From Desulfobacteraceae bacterium (GTDB lineage: Bacteria; Desulfobacterota; Desulfobacteria; Desulfobacterales; Desulfobacteraceae), in contig PIVS01000007.1 in NCBI GenBank assembly GCA_003353855.1, positions 1-34,725 on the forward strand: a stretch of 34,725 bases of DNA, given 5' to 3'. The notes under the pieces were generated by a model. The model was not told the origin of the DNA and made no database searches. It saw nothing but the letters and a program-made list of their open reading frames with translations. A program made the position numbers and the translations under genes. Below, in pieces: positions 15,951 to 24,458 of the stretch. Every line of letters begins with the position of its first letter. Position 1 is the first letter of the stretch.

Positions 15951-16021
15951 TTAACTGTTATTAACTGGCTGTAGGTTATTAACTTCTGATGGAGTTTTTA
16001 ACTTTCAGACCGGTTATTAAC
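15951..16021. repeat. TTAAC array downstream of the RHH-like gene (candidate centromere)
   Basis: Five TTAAC motifs end at C15955, C15965, C15983, C16002 and C16021 (spacings 10, 18, 19, 19 bp), almost the same register as the array upstream of parA. Typical sites read TTATTAAC or TTTTTAAC. The pair of phased arrays bracketing parA and its partner fits a two-part parS. Confidence 0.65.
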
Positions 16022-16078
16022 CTTTAAAATTATTCCTGTAACAAACAATAAATCATATAAAATCTGGAGATAAAGATC

Positions 16079-16279
16079 ATGACAGAACCCAAAATTAAAC
16101 CAACTGTAAAACTCATTGACACCAATGGTAATGCATTCGCCATAATCGGTCGTGTGAAAGAAGCTCTTCGTAAAGCTGGTGCCGACAAGGAATATATTTT
16201 TAAATATCAGGATGAAGCCATGGCGGGGGATTATGATAATTTGCTGTGCGTGACTATGGATTATGTTCATGTGACCTGA
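16079..16279 (+). CDS. Small conserved-looking hypothetical protein, 66 residues
   Basis: A short acidic protein containing DTNGNAFAIIGRVKEALRKAG and a C-terminal GDYDNLLCVTMDYVHV. I recall proteins of this pattern as frequent on phages and integrative elements, without known function. The ribosome site is TGGAGATAAAG, suitably spaced. It lies between the downstream centromere-like array and a strong terminator, so it probably belongs to the partition transcript. Confidence 0.68.
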   Translation: MTEPKIKPTVKLIDTNGNAFAIIGRVKEALRKAGADKEYIFKYQDEAMAGDYDNLLCVTMDYVHVT

Positions 16280-17817: not shown

Positions 17818-19120
17818 ACTAAAATTTTGTATGATTTTCTTAATTGTTTTTATAATCCCAATTAATGCAAATGCTGGATTTGGATCTAAAGCACTAAGAC
17901 TTGTAAAAGAAGCAACTACTATATCATTTCAGTATGCGCAAAAAAAATGGGGAAAAGAAATAATTACGAAGGGCGGGGAGAAGGTCGTTAAAAGCAATAT
18001 CGATGAAGTAGGGCTTAAATATGGAACTCATGTTACAAAAAAAATTGACAATGTTTTTTTTAAATCAGATTTATCGAAAGCACAAATTGGGGATGAAATT
18101 TTAAGATTTGGTCATATATATAAAAAATCTGGTTTTGCTGAAGATGCTTTGGTTTTTGAAATTAAAAACAAAAAAGCTGGTAAACATCTTTTGGGAAAAT
18201 TTGATTATGGCAATTTAAAAGCTGCAGGTCTTTTGGAATCAAATTCTAAATCTGCTGTTCAAGCAATGTGGAGACTATCTGATGATATTGCTATAGGTGG
18301 GTCAAAAACAAAATTTAAAAAGGCACTAAAAAACTCAAATATTTCTGTTGATGATTGTATCCCATGTAAAAAACTTCTAAATAAACAAGACAAATATTCC
18401 AAGATATCATTTAAAAAAATCTCAAAAAAACCAAATACTAAATCAAGATGGCGCCCACAACCTTATAATGAAGAGGATATTGTATTTGATGCAACTTGGG
18501 GAAATTAGAGTAGACGTAAATATGTGAATAAATCTTTTCCAAAAGTAAGCAAAAGAAATAATATAAATTCCAACGGCGATAAATTTAAAAAAGTGTACAA
18601 TAATGGGACAATAGAAAATATATCGAAGCAAAAAAATAAAATTCATAATAAACCTCAACCAAACAAATTAGATAATCATGAAACATTACAGCGTAGACGA
18701 GCAAGAAGTGAAGCAAATGATCTCCAGGTAAATAAAAAGTCCAACTCTAATACAAAACCAAAAGAGAACAGATTAAATGAACGCAAAATAATAAATGGTG
18801 AGTATGCAGGGAAAAAATATCCATCCGAAAAACTTCGTCCTGATTTGCAAAAAAAATACCCTCGTAGTGTAAATTTCGATAAAAATGGATATCCAGATTT
18901 TTCGCCTTATGCAAAAAAAAGGGTTGAAGTGAAAGAATTAAATGGTAATTACGCAAATGATTTTACATTGGCCAACAAACAAGCTGGCTTTGATAGGACT
19001 CCTGATGGTTATACATGGCATCACCATCAAGATGGGAAAACCATGTTATTAGTACCAAAAGATTTGCATGGTGCAATACGGCACACAGGGGGAGCTTCAA
19101 AATTAAGAAAATCAAGCTAA
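17810..19120 (+). pseudogene. Secreted WHH-type HNH nuclease toxin, interrupted by one in-frame TAG
   Basis: The signal-peptide ORF (17810-18508, 232 codons) and the nuclease ORF (nominal GTG at 18524, 198 codons) are in the same frame, separated only by TAG at 18506-18508 and five sense codons. Read through, it is a 436-residue protein: signal peptide MDKLKFCMIFLIVFIIP...ANA, a central region of unknown fold (KAGKHLLGKFDYGNL), a basic low-complexity linker, and a C-terminal HNH/Endo VII nuclease of the WHH type (FSPYAKKRVEV, GYTWHHHQDGKTM, VPKDLHGAIRHTGG) carrying the catalytic histidines. A SUKH immunity gene follows 10 bp later. The GTG has no good ribosome site. Alternatives: recent nonsense mutation, sequencing error, or amber readthrough. 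Confidence 0.8.
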
Positions 19121-19130
19121 GGATTTTAAA

Positions 19131-19577
19131 ATGACAGCAAAAATTTTAGATTCAAAACCATTAGATACGAAAACACTAAGACGACTTGAAAGTGATTACA
19201 ATATAAAATTACCAGAAGAATATAAAAATTTTTTATTAAAGTTTAATGGAGGTTATCCTGAACCGAATATTTTCAGTATGACGATGAATGATCAAAATAA
19301 TGATGGAATGATTCATCGATTTTTAAGGGTAAATCATGATGAAGTCGATGGGATTTATTATTACCTAGAGCTATATAAAGAACGAATTCCGGAAGAATTT
19401 TTACCTATAGCGTACGACCCCGGTAGTAATCTAATATTAATTGGTATTTCGAAAAGCAACCATGGAAAAATATATTTTTGGGATCATGAAGATGAAGGAG
19501 AATTGGTGTCCAATAATAATGTTTATTTTATTTCAAATTCAATAAATAAGTTCATTGGCAGTCTTAGAGAACTTTAA
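19131..19577 (+). CDS. SUKH (SMI1/KNR4) immunity protein
   Basis: A 148-residue cytoplasmic immunity protein of the SUKH superfamily. Typical features are LRRLESDYNIKLPEEYKNFLLKFNGG at the N-terminus, FLPIAYDPGSNLILIGI in the middle and IYFWDHEDEGE near the C-terminus. SUKH proteins neutralise HNH/WHH nuclease toxins encoded next to them (established for polymorphic toxin loci). AAGGATTTT precedes the ATG. It lies 10 bp after the toxin frame and converges with the NUC1-like gene 13 bp away. Confidence 0.92.
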   Translation: MTAKILDSKPLDTKTLRRLESDYNIKLPEEYKNFLLKFNGGYPEPNIFSMTMNDQNNDGMIHRFLRVNHDEVDGIYYYLELYKERIPEEFLPIAYDPGSNLILIGISKSNHGKIYFWDHEDEGELVSNNNVYFISNSINKFIGSLREL

Positions 19578-19590
19578 ATCATTCTTTAAT

Positions 19591-20337
19591 TTAATCAGGA
19601 TCAATAAGCTCCTCCAACCCCAATCCCCGCTTCTTGCTCTCCAAATTTCTTTGCTTTACGACACTCAAATCAGGAAAAAATTCCAATCCAGTCAGCTTTT
19701 CAATTTCATCAATGGTGGTTACATAATCCATAAAGTCATTAGTCTCAGGCGCCTGAGGGAAAATGAACGAGACCGCTTTTAACGTGCTTAAATATCCTTT
19801 TTTGAATGAAATTATTTTATAAAATTCATCAGGGATAGCAACCCCAGATTCTAATCTGTCAGGTGGATTCTTTGTGAAAATGGGACCAGTGATAACATAA
19901 ACACTATGGACCTGTTTGTTTGTTGTATCATCTTGAGAAATTTCATCCCTGATTTTCCCTTCAAGACTCTTCCATATCCCTCTATTCAATGCTGGGGTAT
20001 ATGTATCAGTTAGTAACTCATTAAATTTATAAAAATCTCGATTAAAATTGATAACGGGAATAGGGTTGGCCAAATCGTCTGGGTTGATTCCTGTCTTTGC
20101 AAAAAGAGCATCGCCAGTTGAAAGTCCTAAATTCCCAACTCCTATGTAAAGAGTCTTTGATTCATTATCCTTTTTAGAGAAGTTAGCAGATTGTTCTGGT
20201 GTATATATTCTTGGTCGTTCTTTTTTATTTGAAATGGGTGAAAGATAGGACAACCCTTCATGAATATTTCCTACTATATTTAACGTAGCAGCCAAGCTTA
20301 TCTTTTTTATAAAATTTCGTCTTGATAAAGTAATCAT
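19591..20337 (-). CDS. Tat-exported DNA/RNA non-specific endonuclease-like protein lacking DRGH
   Basis: A 248-residue protein with a twin-arginine-type signal (SRRNFIKKISLAATLNIVG). The C-terminal part matches the NUC1/NucA fold: ALNRGIWKSLEGKIRDEI with the metal-binding Asn (about residue 118), VYVITGPIF, AIPDEFYKII and a following AVSFIFPQ, then FMDYVTTIDEIEKLTGLEFFP. The catalytic DRGH motif expected roughly 25-40 residues before NRGIW is absent; that stretch instead reads GDALFAKTGINPDDLANPIP. It may be a catalytically dead binder or use another catalytic residue. It is the last gene of the minus-strand operon, 50 bp after the MraZ fusion gene. Confidence 0.82.
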   Translation of the reverse strand: MITLSRRNFIKKISLAATLNIVGNIHEGLSYLSPISNKKERPRIYTPEQSANFSKKDNESKTLYIGVGNLGLSTGDALFAKTGINPDDLANPIPVINFNRDFYKFNELLTDTYTPALNRGIWKSLEGKIRDEISQDDTTNKQVHSVYVITGPIFTKNPPDRLESGVAIPDEFYKIISFKKGYLSTLKAVSFIFPQAPETNDFMDYVTTIDEIEKLTGLEFFPDLSVVKQRNLESKKRGLGLEELIDPD

Positions 20338-20387
20338 AATTTTTCCCGTGAATTAGGTTGTTTGCATACATCATCTCAATTTTAGAA

Positions 20388-21425
20388 TTATATTAAATCT
20401 CTTATGTCATCGTTTTCATCATCCGATAGTTCGTCTTCCATCATTTCATTCTCTTTATTCCATTTCTCTTCATCCCAGATTTCAAACTTAGTAAGGTTTC
20501 CAACAAAATAAATTTTTTTGTGAAGTTTTGCATATTCTATGAGGTATTGAGGAATCTCTATTTGATTTGAATTGATTATTTTGCACAAAAATGCACTGCT
20601 AATAAAAATGGTTCTAAACAGTCTTGTCCCTTTAGAGTAACCAAGTCTCCGGGTAAAGTCACTTTCAATACTTTTCCATCTGCTTAAGGTATAGGCGTGG
20701 ATACATCCATCTCTTTTGGTTAATATAAGCTGGCTATCGCTTTCATTAATTATGATTTTTAGAAATCGTTTTGGTAATCGAACTTTCCCATTGTGGTTCA
20801 TTTTTCCTATAGATGTTGATCTGAAAAAACCAGGATGCATCGAACTTTTCAAATTTGAATATACGTTCTCAAACTGATCTATTTTTTTGTTTAATGATTC
20901 TGAATTATCCGTTTTTTCATGCGAACTTTTCCTGAATTCACCTTTTGCAATCTTTTCTAAAACAAACTTGGGAGTTCGATCATTTAATATTAATTCCAGG
21001 CGAACATCAGGGTTGTTCTGGTTAAGCAATATGTCATATAACCATTTTTTTTCACAAATTTTATGTGTGTCTGTTAATTTGTTTAAATTTTCTATAATTG
21101 AGATCATAATCTCAGGATTATTGATTTCAATTATATCTTCAAGATCGTCTTCGTTCATCAATTCCATGAAACTTTCATTTTTAATTATAGACTTCAAGAC
21201 CTGTGGATCTTGATCATTAAGAAGAATTTGAATTGTTTCAACATGCAAGTTCTCCATGGAAGCAACCTTTGATCTGATTAAAGCGAAGTCCGATTTAGAA
21301 AGATAATGAAATATATCCATATTTTTCTCAGAATCACTTAATAAATTTATAAGACTGCATAATTCGTTAATATCAAGATTGATTACTTTATCCTTCAATA
21401 GAAATTTTATGAATTTAGGTCTCAT
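20388..21425 (-). CDS. HEAT-like repeat protein fused to a MraZ-type (double AbrB) domain
   Basis: A 345-residue protein. Residues about 1-165 are short helical repeats (LLSDSEKNMDIFHYLSKS, LNDQDPQVLKSIIKN, NNPDVRLELILN) paralogous to the whole of the neighbouring 192-residue protein. Residues about 205-320 resemble MraZ: IGKMNHNGKVRLPKRFL, LTKRDGCIHAYTLSRW, a helix pair, then a second copy IEIPQYLIEYAKLHKKIYFVG and KFEIWDEEKW. The DNA-contact Arg of the first AbrB motif is kept, but that of the second copy is replaced (NSNQIEIP). The C-terminus is acidic. I know no such fusion; it may be a DNA-binding or ring-forming scaffold. Confidence 0.8.
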   Translation of the reverse strand: MRPKFIKFLLKDKVINLDINELCSLINLLSDSEKNMDIFHYLSKSDFALIRSKVASMENLHVETIQILLNDQDPQVLKSIIKNESFMELMNEDDLEDIIEINNPEIMISIIENLNKLTDTHKICEKKWLYDILLNQNNPDVRLELILNDRTPKFVLEKIAKGEFRKSSHEKTDNSESLNKKIDQFENVYSNLKSSMHPGFFRSTSIGKMNHNGKVRLPKRFLKIIINESDSQLILTKRDGCIHAYTLSRWKSIESDFTRRLGYSKGTRLFRTIFISSAFLCKIINSNQIEIPQYLIEYAKLHKKIYFVGNLTKFEIWDEEKWNKENEMMEDELSDDENDDIRDLI

Positions 21426-21570
21426 TTATGAGCTCCCAGGAATTTGGTGAGTATTATTGGGTTTATGGAATATTTAGGATCGTTTTATTTAAACCCCAGC
21501 TCTTTAAATTTGACCAACTTGAGGTAGGATGCCTGTTACGATTAAAGTTGCTTGAATCGTTTCACCTATA

Positions 21571-22149
21571 TCAATCATAAAAGTCATCATCTGAATCCTC
21601 ATCATAATCGAACTTTATATCTTTTATTTTATCCAAAGTTTCTTTAGCTGCTTGAGAAACATTACTATCTGGATCATCAACTAATTTTTTAAGAAAGATT
21701 TCAGGGGTTTCTTCACTGGCTGCCAACTCATATCTAACCTGTGGATCTTTTGCTCGATAAAGTTGTTCACACAACCAGTCTTGTTCACATACGCTATATT
21801 CTTCAATAAAATGATCCATGTTATTTGCCATAATCGTCAAGACTTCGGAATCCCCGTTTGTGATAAATCTTTTAACGTCCTCTTTGTCCATTAATCGTAT
21901 GAATTTTCTTTTTGAAATCACAGCTCGCATAACTTCAATCTGGGTGTCTGATAGAAGCATTTTGACAGTCTTGTCGTGGAGATTTTGGTAAGATCCTATG
22001 TGAGATCTTACATCTGTTGCTGTAGATTTTGCTAATTCATGGAATATATCTTTTGCTTCCTTACAATCGTCCAAGACATAAGAAATTTCAATTAATTCCC
22101 TGTGACCCAATTCCAAACTTTTGTTGTTAATGATAAGCTTTGCTTTCAT
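21571..22149 (-). CDS. HEAT-like helical repeat protein, paralogue of the MraZ-fusion N-terminus
   Basis: A 192-residue acidic protein of helical repeats (DIFHELAKSTATDVRSHIG, LSDTQIEVMRAVISK, KDPQVRYELAASEETPEIFL, DDPDSNVSQAAKETL) ending in a run of Asp (DEDSDDDF). It shares order and key residues with the first 165 residues of the downstream gene, including the conserved CE.WL (CEQDWL/CEKKWL), so it is a duplication with or without the MraZ domain. It starts within the stop codon of the upstream gene (4-bp ATGA overlap). Such repeats usually bind protein or nucleic acid. Confidence 0.78.
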   Translation of the reverse strand: MKAKLIINNKSLELGHRELIEISYVLDDCKEAKDIFHELAKSTATDVRSHIGSYQNLHDKTVKMLLSDTQIEVMRAVISKRKFIRLMDKEDVKRFITNGDSEVLTIMANNMDHFIEEYSVCEQDWLCEQLYRAKDPQVRYELAASEETPEIFLKKLVDDPDSNVSQAAKETLDKIKDIKFDYDEDSDDDFYD

Positions 22150-22619
22150 AGTTTGTCCGCCTTTGATTTTTTATGGTTTTTTGAAGGATCAATATCCTTT
22201 GTCTCAATATCAATATTTTTATTGAGCATTTTGGAATCGGTATAAGGGAGAATAATGAAATGATTTTTACCGCTGTTAGAATGTGTTTTTTCCAGAGATA
22301 AAGTGACCGCCTGGTACGAGTAAGCAAACAAAGTTATATGGTCATATTTCATATCTATGTGATGTTCTCCCGTGATCAGCCACGATGAACCTGGGATGAC
22401 AGTTGAAACGAGTTCATCAACATACTGTTTTTCATTCTTTTTATACAAATTAACAATTTCTACACTATTGCCTAATGCAAAACATTCTCCATAAAAGGTA
22501 ACTTGAAATCCATTTGAATGTGAAAAGTCATCATTAATTGCTCTGATGGAGACTACTGTAGAAATCTGTTCCAGTTTCGGATCAAAAACAATCGCAGTTT
22601 TATTGATTATTTTTTTCAT
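22146..22619 (-). CDS. Hypothetical protein, first gene of the WYL-linked operon
   Basis: A 157-residue, predominantly beta-strand protein (VVSIRAINDDF, FQVTFYGECFALG, WLITGEHHIDMKYDHITLFAYSY) with a lysine-rich C-terminal tail. No domain recognised. AGGGA precedes the ATG. It leads the minus-strand operon, is translationally coupled to the HEAT-like gene, and lies 105 bp from the divergent WYL regulator with a palindrome in between. Confidence 0.7.
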   Translation of the reverse strand: MKKIINKTAIVFDPKLEQISTVVSIRAINDDFSHSNGFQVTFYGECFALGNSVEIVNLYKKNEKQYVDELVSTVIPGSSWLITGEHHIDMKYDHITLFAYSYQAVTLSLEKTHSNSGKNHFIILPYTDSKMLNKNIDIETKDIDPSKNHKKSKADKL

Positions 22620-22677
22620 TTTTCCCTAATTTAATTTGAAAACAATTCATTTTGTATTTGATAATATCTTATGAATA

Positions 22678-22692
22678 TTCCATATTATGGAA
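22678..22692. promoter_or_regulatory. 15-bp perfect palindrome in the divergent promoter (likely WYL operator)
   Basis: TTCCATA-T-TATGGAA is a perfect inverted repeat located between the WYL gene and the divergent operon. It overlaps a plausible -10 (TATTAT) of the WYL promoter, with TTGATA at 22658-22663 as -35. Its position inside the longest possible WYL frame argues that translation starts at 22725, not further upstream. Confidence 0.6.
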
Positions 22693-22724
22693 CGACTTTT
22701 CATTTTTTAATAAAAGGGGTCTCT

Positions 22725-23726
22725 ATGCCTAAAAAGATTCAATCTGATAAAGATCACGGACAAAAAATAATCGAATTATTTTTTAAATTATTCTTCTCGC
22801 CTTATGAATATTCGTTGACTGAACTTTCAAGAGAATTGGAGTGTTCCAAGCAGACGGTTGGACGTATCGTTGATAAAATAAACAGTTCCATGAAAGGTAT
22901 TAAAATAGAGGACTTCACTAAAAATAGGAGACGATATTTTAAGATTAGAAAAGATAAAATCCCATCAAAAGCTATAAATTTGAGTCAATCAGAATATGGT
23001 CTTTTGCAGATGTGCTGTTCTTTTACCCAACACTTGATTGGAAAAGAAACTTTTGATCAGGCAGCTAATGCTCTTGGGAAGAGTCAGATTTTAATAAAAA
23101 ATAGAGAAACAGTATCAGGAAAACACTTTGGTGCATTCCTTCCTGGTACAATTGATTATTCGAGTCACCAGGGGATAATAAAAGATTTGATAGCCGCCAT
23201 GGAAAAAAGTAAGGTTTGCAAGGTTGCTTATAAATCTATCGGGAATAAGGAGGCGAAAGTATTTCATATCAAGCCATTAAAGCTCTTTTCTAAAGGTGAT
23301 ACTATTTATTTACATACTCAGTTGTCAAAGACTCCAGGGAAAGTATTTAAGGCACCAAGATTTGATCCTCTACTGGCCATTCATAGAATTGATGAAATTG
23401 AAATTACCGAAGCTTCCTTTAAATATCCTGATAATTTTGATTTTGAGAAGAGCTTTAATCAAACCTTTGGTGTTATTAAAGAGGATGCTTTTCAGGTTAA
23501 AGTAGAATTCTCTGGTTATGCTGCAATGTATGTGCGAGAACGGATATGGAGTCAGGACCAGGAAATTGTTGAGAAGAAAGACGGAAAAATCGAATTAAGA
23601 TTTACCGCAACTTCTGAGGAAGAGGTTTTGTCCTGGATATTATCGTATGGCCATGAGGCACGAGTCCTTGAGCCCGATTGGTTTTTGAAGGAGGTGGCGT
23701 TAGAAATTAAAAAAATGAAACTCTAA
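22725..23726 (+). CDS. WYL-domain transcriptional regulator
   Basis: A 333-residue regulator with an N-terminal helix-turn-helix (YSLTELSRELECSKQTVGRIVDKI, about 29-52), a central WYL ligand-sensing domain (KVCKVAYKSIG, FHIKPLKLFSKGDTIYLHTQ, FDPLLAIHRIDEIEI) and a C-terminal WCX extension (FQVKVEFSGYAAMYVRERIW, EEVLSWILSYGHEARVLEP). The ATG at 22725 follows AAAGGGG; the 18 extra codons upstream cover the palindrome. WYL proteins are frequent regulators of phage-defence loci and sense nucleotides or single-stranded DNA (family knowledge). It likely controls the divergent four-gene operon and itself. Confidence 0.92.
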   Translation: MPKKIQSDKDHGQKIIELFFKLFFSPYEYSLTELSRELECSKQTVGRIVDKINSSMKGIKIEDFTKNRRRYFKIRKDKIPSKAINLSQSEYGLLQMCCSFTQHLIGKETFDQAANALGKSQILIKNRETVSGKHFGAFLPGTIDYSSHQGIIKDLIAAMEKSKVCKVAYKSIGNKEAKVFHIKPLKLFSKGDTIYLHTQLSKTPGKVFKAPRFDPLLAIHRIDEIEITEASFKYPDNFDFEKSFNQTFGVIKEDAFQVKVEFSGYAAMYVRERIWSQDQEIVEKKDGKIELRFTATSEEEVLSWILSYGHEARVLEPDWFLKEVALEIKKMKL

Positions 23727-23750: not shown

Positions 23751-24458
23751 TTAATCCGAAGTCTGCTTTTTAATTAAGATAGAACCTGCAGTCCATAAAT
23801 ATGAGTTACCATACTCTTTTTCTTCTTTGTATTTATTAGGGTGTAAATATTCTATATTTGAATTTCTTCGGTATAAATTCCATTCATCATCCTTTACACT
23901 CAGTTCCAATTTTTTAATTTTGGTCTTGATATGGCTTTCTATATCTTTTTTATTATCGAGAAAATCATAATATGCATAAAATGCGACAATACCAAATTGT
24001 AAATTGTTATATGAATCAGCAGCTAACAATTCTGACATTCTACAAATATCATGTCTTAGATCATTACCACACCTCTTACCGTTTTCAGATATTGGTTCTT
24101 CGGCATAGGAGCCATATGCTATATGAGATTTGACCTCTATTATCGCGAAAGGGGCTTCTTCAGCTTTTTTCCAAAGTAGAATGTCAACTTTCTTATGTGC
24201 TTTTTTTTTAGCTTTTAGTAAAAGGGATTTGTTAAGTTCTTTATGATCAGATTTTTCAATCATATTTTTTAGTGGATATTCCAAGGTAACATAACATCCG
24301 AATTCTTCCAGATTATCATTTAATGCGTATGCAATTGATGTAGCCATGAAATATTCTGGCCCACAAAATATTGATTCACCACCCGACATTTTAAGATATT
24401 TTTCATATCCATTATTTAAGCCACAATGAATACTTTTAATTAAACTTTCTTTTTCCAC
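23751..24458 (-). CDS. PD-(D/E)XK nuclease-like protein
   Basis: A 235-residue protein. The core reads KKVDILLWKK...PFAIIEVKSHI: an Asp at the end of one strand and E-x-K in the next, the restriction-endonuclease-like (PD-(D/E)XK) signature, at about residues 89-111. The N-terminal helical part contains a conserved-looking EYFMATSIAYAL. A GTG start at 24458 follows AGGGGA. It lies 12 bp after the HU/IHF gene in the same direction, and converges with the WYL gene 24 bp away. Active sites look intact; whether it cuts nucleic acid is not shown. Confidence 0.7.
   Translation of the reverse strand: MEKESLIKSIHCGLNNGYEKYLKMSGGESIFCGPEYFMATSIAYALNDNLEEFGCYVTLEYPLKNMIEKSDHKELNKSLLLKAKKKAHKKVDILLWKKAEEAPFAIIEVKSHIAYGSYAEEPISENGKRCGNDLRHDICRMSELLAADSYNNLQFGIVAFYAYYDFLDNKKDIESHIKTKIKKLELSVKDDEWNLYRRNSNIEYLHPNKYKEEKEYGNSYLWTAGSILIKKQTSD

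Follow-up and report, generated by a model that had tools for sequence, protein, structure and literature searches.

A WYL-associated cluster of HEAT-like and FtsZ-related genes, with an FtsZ-like/NUC1 chimera, in a Desulfobacteraceae genome

Organisation of the locus

The region analysed here, referred to as the window, is a stretch of 34,725 nt from Desulfobacteraceae bacterium (GCA_003353855.1, contig PIVS01000007.1, positions 1-34,725 of the forward strand), the genome of which comprises 5.94 Mb in 1269 contigs, with 6.7 % contamination. Within the window, a gene for a WYL-domain transcriptional regulator lies opposite four open reading frames (ORFs), termed genes A to D, with a palindrome between them. 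Comparison with related loci, drawn largely from fragmented genomes, suggests that this cluster is real and undescribed, and that the window probably holds a damaged or repurposed copy of it. The features of the locus are:

19591-20337, minus strand: gene D, FtsZ-like/NUC1 chimera, 248 amino acids (aa)
20388-21425, minus strand: gene C, HEAT-like N-terminus, MraZ-like part and acidic tail, 345 aa
21571-22149, minus strand: gene B, HEAT-like protein with an acidic C-terminal tail, 192 aa, conserved partner of the WYL gene
22146-22619, minus strand: gene A, 157-aa orphan with no family match, weakly predicted to be all-beta
22678-22692, no strand: perfect 15-bp palindrome TTCCATATTATGGAA, probable WYL operator
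22725-23726, plus strand: WYL/WCX transcriptional regulator with an MPKK start (WCX E 1.7e-17; WYL E 7e-5)

All four ORFs are encoded on the minus strand, opposite the plus-strand WYL gene, in agreement with the four-gene operon described in the initial annotation of this DNA. There is a 4-nt overlap between genes A and B, while genes C and D are separated by 50 nt and genes B and C by 145 nt, with no recognisable gene remnant in the latter gap. No credible terminator was found inside the operon, and thus A to D likely form a single transcription unit. A simple promoter scan performed at approximately chance level (29 found versus 23 expected). The GC content of the operon ranges from 0.30 to 0.36, as opposed to 0.48 to 0.50 in the flanking core genes beyond 26 kb, and the first 15 kb of the window carry genes of the type found in mobile elements, coding for ParB-like, SSB, PD-(D/E)XK, UvrD-like, DUF932 and RadC proteins. 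Three of these genes retain their order beside a related locus in genome G151 (L094). The low GC content of the operon, together with the SSB, RadC, UvrD-like and DUF932 genes, supports a location on an island, as suggested earlier, or on a mobile element.

The WYL regulator and its predicted operator

The WYL and WCX matches of the regulator are both above the respective cut-off values, while a match to HTH_11 (E 0.0014) falls below. The ORF can be extended in the 5' direction to 22671, and this extension takes in the palindrome. The conserved MPKK at 22725 is, however, probably the true start, as judged from the homologues and from a ribosome-binding-like stretch, AAAAGGGG, preceding it. Within the order, 28 further genomes were found to carry a homologue of the WYL gene. 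The upstream regions of 23 WYL genes, comprising that of the window and 22 homologues (about 41-77 % identical), were aligned. The palindrome noted previously, located at 22678-22692, belongs to a motif with the extended consensus TTCCATNNNAYGGAACG, which occurs at a nearly constant distance from the start codon in 22/23 genes, with nine to twelve of the twelve fixed positions in agreement in these 22 loci. The pattern TTCCATNNNNYGGAACG has exactly one match in the 5.94-Mb window genome. In two loci (L091 and L092) a TTGACA/TATCGT-like promoter, read by eye, ends right at the motif.

This arrangement resembles that of CapW, where palindromes overlap the -10 element of the divergent promoter (PMC9122588), and of BrxR, where inverted repeats are situated between the promoter and the gene (PMC9122601). 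CapW, a CBASS repressor, and BrxR, a BREX-island repressor, are, like the window protein, WYL-domain regulators of foreign defence-type loci, with a palindrome or inverted repeat in the promoter region beside the regulator's own start (PMC9122588, PMC9122601). They differ from the window regulator in that its predicted site has a different sequence (TTCCATNNNAYGGAACG), and that it would control HEAT-like and FtsZ-like genes rather than CBASS or BREX. Considering the conserved position of the motif, its genome-unique pattern and the CapW- and BrxR-like geometry, it is highly probable that the WYL protein acts as a repressor via the palindrome, its candidate operator. The WYL control proposed in the initial annotation is thus supported by the retention of the palindrome in 22/23 loci and by the single genome-wide match of the pattern.

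Many of the WYL homologues in the 28-genome set face a gene coding for a protein of approximately 750 aa in divergent position, as is the case in L078, L080, L081, L083, L085, L087, L089, L090 and L092. The copy examined, that of L083, encodes an IetA-like ATPase with two AAA+ domains (PADLOC IetA, E 2e-40), and no protease partner was noticed beside the ~750-aa genes. The window has no such IetAS-type gene and carries the HEAT-like operon in its stead. Genome G133 has a WYL homologue opposite a ~750-aa gene on both its chromosome and a plasmid. A second family of small Tat-led proteins (that is, with a twin-arginine translocation leader) is encoded near WYL genes (L028:4058-4624, L083:16801-17400 and L086:1342-1713). 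The L028 member is 188 aa in length and shares 52 % identity with that of L083, while the L086 member has the leader in common with them.

Gene B and the recurring core of the cluster

The product of gene B matches HEAT_2 with an E-value of 7.6e-4 and a score of 20.2 bits, below the curated cut-off of 27.7, so that its description as HEAT-like stands as a weak match. Homologues with 49-63 % identity are encoded opposite a WYL gene in five other genomes (G024, G027, G040, G043 and G744). The family is patchily distributed, occurring in 6/86 genomes of the bacterial family and 8/291 of the order. Within a sample of 395 genomes of the phylum it was found in the window genome only, while a wider HEAT profile retrieved zero further genomes across the phylum. 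No relatives of the HEAT-like protein were observed in viral contigs or plasmids.

Co-occurrence was assessed by listing the loci. In this comparison, the recurring core of the cluster consists of a WYL gene, an operator-like site and a gene for a HEAT-like protein ending in an acidic tail; a gene for a Tat-led protein is often present as well. The initial annotation had asked whether the genes co-occur in other genomes, and this applies to the WYL-HEAT pair (in the window and five further genomes) but not to the exact four-gene set, as outside the window genome neither gene A nor the HEAT-MraZ fusion nor the NUC1 piece was found in such a setting.

Second members of the HEAT family form part of another recurring block (L023:12610-16461, L024:11829-16101 and L051:7929-9468), which holds C39-peptidase-like and DUF2958-like proteins and an integrase. 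In L023 and L024 the block further includes a DnaJ-like protein and an ATPase of the histidine-kinase type (all named by eye). The second copies in L023 and L024 also adjoin the gene for a small protein, p83. A homologue of p83 on the plus strand probably accounts for the minus-strand ORF at 15998-16270 of the window, which would then be its shadow.

Gene D and the Tat-led FtsZ-like proteins

Genes for Tat-led FtsZ-like proteins are situated near B-like genes in four genomes (G040, G043, G744 and G194), while in G151 the WYL gene is directly divergent from such a gene. In G154, FtsZ-like genes without the Tat motif occur near a HEAT-like gene (PF00091, E 8e-37 and 5e-10). A profile of six Tat-led proteins (from G040, G043, G744, G151, G006 and G192) matches the C-terminal domain of cellular FtsZ with an E-value of about 1e-20, and a five-member profile, which includes the G194 protein, has matches in 228/242 genomes of the order, almost exclusively to cellular FtsZ. 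On the basis of these profile matches, the Tat-led proteins are homologues of FtsZ at the level of sequence. Seven were counted (L023, L024, L028, L094, L127, L129 and L049), of which the L049 protein is more distant, with no significant match to the six-member profile and a tubulin-domain match of its own (E 3e-7) that scores 31.3 bits against a cut-off of 33. Most of the seven retain the T7 motif, of the D-F-A-D kind. They differ from cellular FtsZ in the Tat leader and in the loss of the GTP-binding T4 loop GGGTGTG, which is absent in all seven. Furthermore, they have HEAT-like and WYL genes as neighbours, as opposed to the vWA and kinase genes of FtsZl1 and FtsZl2 (PMC2875224). No relatives were found in plasmids or viral contigs.

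G154 and G192 further encode short FtsZ-like proteins that have the T4 loop but lack the C-terminal domain. Proteins of this short kind are encoded at L050:7728-9492 and L129:463-1053, beside HEAT-like or Tat-led FtsZ-like genes, two of them with the T4 loop intact, and may constitute a split FtsZ-like pair. Two Tat-led FtsZ-like genes are adjoined by genes for ATPases consisting of DnaB_C only (L023:7033-7920, E 7e-80; L024:4119-5027, E 9e-62), i.e. the motor of the replicative helicase without its N-terminal domain.

Gene D is related to these proteins over part of its length. Its product starts with a twin-arginine motif, SRRNFIK, followed by a moderately hydrophobic stretch, similar to that in the seven relatives, and by this motif it is a predicted Tat substrate for export. 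Residues 1-111 match the six-member profile (E 4e-17), with no other significant match in the window. Residues 113-236 align with the C-terminal half of NUC1 (PF01223, E 1e-17, profile positions 113-220 of 223; Serratia nuclease, E 8.5e-10), and the junction of the two parts, near 20004-20007, is in frame. On the FtsZ side only the N-terminal lobe is present, without a complete GTPase domain (the T4 loop GGGTGTG) or the C-terminal domain. On the nuclease side the N-terminal half and the catalytic DRGH motif are lacking; the motif is present in L132 and L134, full-length NUC1 proteins from this bacterial family. Considering its composition of an FtsZ-like stretch and half of a NUC1 domain without DRGH, D is, by sequence, a chimera fused in frame, in which the FtsZ domain is incomplete and the active site of the nuclease is missing. 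The idea of D as an intact nuclease for export was rejected on account of the absent active site. With the FtsZ C-terminal domain lost and half of a dead NUC1 domain carried, the window D has probably decayed in its FtsZ-like function or been repurposed. The FtsZ-like N-terminus, which the initial annotation did not contain, is the more unusual part of the protein.

Genes A and C

No matches to gene A were found in the Pfam, NCBIfam, PHROGs and PADLOC databases, and no convincing homologue in 14 related genomes. Its structure model is all-beta, with a predicted local distance difference test (pLDDT) value of 38.4 that is too poor to use; the description of its product as beta-rich therefore survives as a weak statement. 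A pairwise signal with the Tat-led 188-aa protein of L028 was weak (E 0.025, probability 2 %) and was not used.

Gene C, previously described as a HEAT-like/MraZ fusion, was confirmed as such and represents an MraZ-fused paralogue of B, with residues 1-160 sharing 30 % identity with B and residues 200-337 constituting a full-length MraZ homologue (TIGR00242, E 2.6e-20, below the cut-off of that model). The DxxxR-type motifs of MraZ are required for DNA binding. MraZ would be expected to have two AbrB-like halves with such motifs, and in gene C both motifs are degenerate relative to L008 (DQKGR to NHNGK and DKQSR to INSNQ). The protein thus shares full-length homology with the MraZ repressor in its second part, but differs from it in the HEAT-like fusion and the altered motifs. 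The window genome has an ordinary ftsZ and mraZ as well. The combination of HEAT and MraZ in one protein is absent from all other genomes and records searched, with plasmid and phage relatives limited to matches to the MraZ part in Listeria records.

Function and origin of the cluster

Genes A to D have no match to any system in PADLOC. In L023, a type I restriction enzyme and Gabija (GajA, 1018 bits; GajB, 779 bits) accompany the HEAT locus. L049 carries a type III methyltransferase, L050 a type I methyltransferase and specificity subunit, and the window itself the SIR2-like gene and the toxin-immunity pair described below. That several HEAT loci adjoin Gabija or restriction-modification genes supports, but does not prove, a role in defence, and is in keeping with the earlier view of a defence-like make-up. 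The locus is likely to represent island- or defence-associated cargo and appears, on balance, to be an accessory module of foreign origin that is autoregulated by WYL and belongs to a defence island or mobile element. An anti-phage or anti-element function is evenly poised between probable and improbable, while action through cell division, hinted at by the co-location of FtsZ-derived and MraZ-derived parts, is unlikely.

Several observations weigh against this interpretation. Members of the HEAT family occur without WYL or FtsZ-like neighbours in G133 and as the second copies in G040, G043 and G154; the HEAT gene of G084 has merely a distant WYL gene nearby, and the WYL-HEAT pair of G027 has no FtsZ-like gene in its vicinity. 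The Tat leaders were assigned by motif only, and the structure prediction for a Tat-led FtsZ-like protein (pLDDT 43.5) gave an uninformative fold search, so that the fold is unconfirmed by the model. The operator and the roles of the genes of the locus are predictions from sequence.

A less probable explanation, albeit one to be taken seriously, is that the locus is decaying cargo, a functionless remnant of a once intact WYL-HEAT-FtsZ-like module in which D arose through deletion or recombination between FtsZ-like and NUC1 genes. In agreement with this, D is missing both the C-terminal domain of FtsZ and the active site of the nuclease, the WYL gene of the relative in G024 is interrupted by stop codons, and gene A lacks convincing relatives, but all four ORFs have remained open, and the operator, the WYL gene and gene B are conserved and undamaged. 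It is very improbable that two separate genes were joined into D by an error of assembly: the fusion is in frame and the operon otherwise normal, even though the genome is fragmented (1269 contigs) and contaminated (6.7 %) and no close relative of D was found. Homology to MraZ and FtsZ could also point to a regulatory or housekeeping cell-division module with no part in defence. This is an improbable reading, given the patchy distribution of the HEAT-like family (6/86 and 8/291 genomes, and the window's own alone among 395), the normal ftsZ and mraZ genes elsewhere in the genome, the low GC content and mobile setting, and the relatives beside restriction and Gabija genes. Least plausible of all is the idea put forward in the initial annotation, namely that the operon is a working anti-phage system and that D, as a NUC1-like protein exported via Tat, degrades incoming DNA in the periplasm. 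The Tat motif, the significant match to the C-terminal half of NUC1, the WYL control and the defence-island setting were in its favour, and the Tat motif stands. However, D lacks DRGH and the N-terminal half of the nuclease fold, whereas the full-length L132 and L134 proteins have the motif, and the NUC1 piece was found in no other WYL-HEAT locus. The notion of a nuclease that attacks incoming DNA in the periplasm is therefore unsupported.

If the cluster is a WYL-autoregulated accessory module, the WYL protein would, by analogy with CapW and BrxR, repress transcription on either side, and a ligand produced upon infection or DNA stress would relieve this repression. The HEAT-like proteins would then serve as cytosolic adaptors, while the Tat-led FtsZ-like protein would work at the membrane or the division apparatus. 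With the T7 face kept and the GTP site lost, it is conceivable that the latter caps or poisons FtsZ filaments via this face, with the halt in division as an abortive response. The MraZ fusion encoded by gene C may be the window copy's own contact with the division programme. A more specific and rather doubtful proposal is that in some bacteria exported or membrane-targeted pseudo-FtsZ proteins and their HEAT-like partners, in WYL-controlled defence islands, block division or sense its disruption by phage, docking onto FtsZ via the T7 face that they have kept, and that in the window variant the HEAT-MraZ protein and the FtsZ-NUC1 chimera replaced the original partner.

The comparison points to an undescribed and patchily inherited pair of families, HEAT-like proteins with acidic tails and Tat-led FtsZ-like proteins without a GTP site, tied to a WYL regulator that has a well-defined operator-like site. 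An FtsZ relative with an export signal and a lost nucleotide site would be unusual in itself. Novel systems directed against phages or mobile elements may well be sought among modules of the WYL-HEAT type, which are good candidates. The predicted operator consensus TTCCATNNNAYGGAACG makes their regulation directly testable and could be used to find further WYL-controlled loci.

Other genes in the window

Further genes of the window have counterparts among defence and toxin families. These include a SIR2-like gene at 120-1373 on the minus strand (PADLOC PDC-S25, E 1e-134). Convergent with the operon, at 18524-19577, are genes for a WHH-family (HNH/Endo VII) nuclease toxin and a subsequent SUKH/SMI1-KNR4 immunity protein, which constitute a polymorphic toxin-immunity pair. 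Just downstream of the WYL gene and convergent with it, a minus-strand gene at 23751-24458 codes for a protein that weakly resembles PADLOC Tin (E 7e-5) as well as Cas4.

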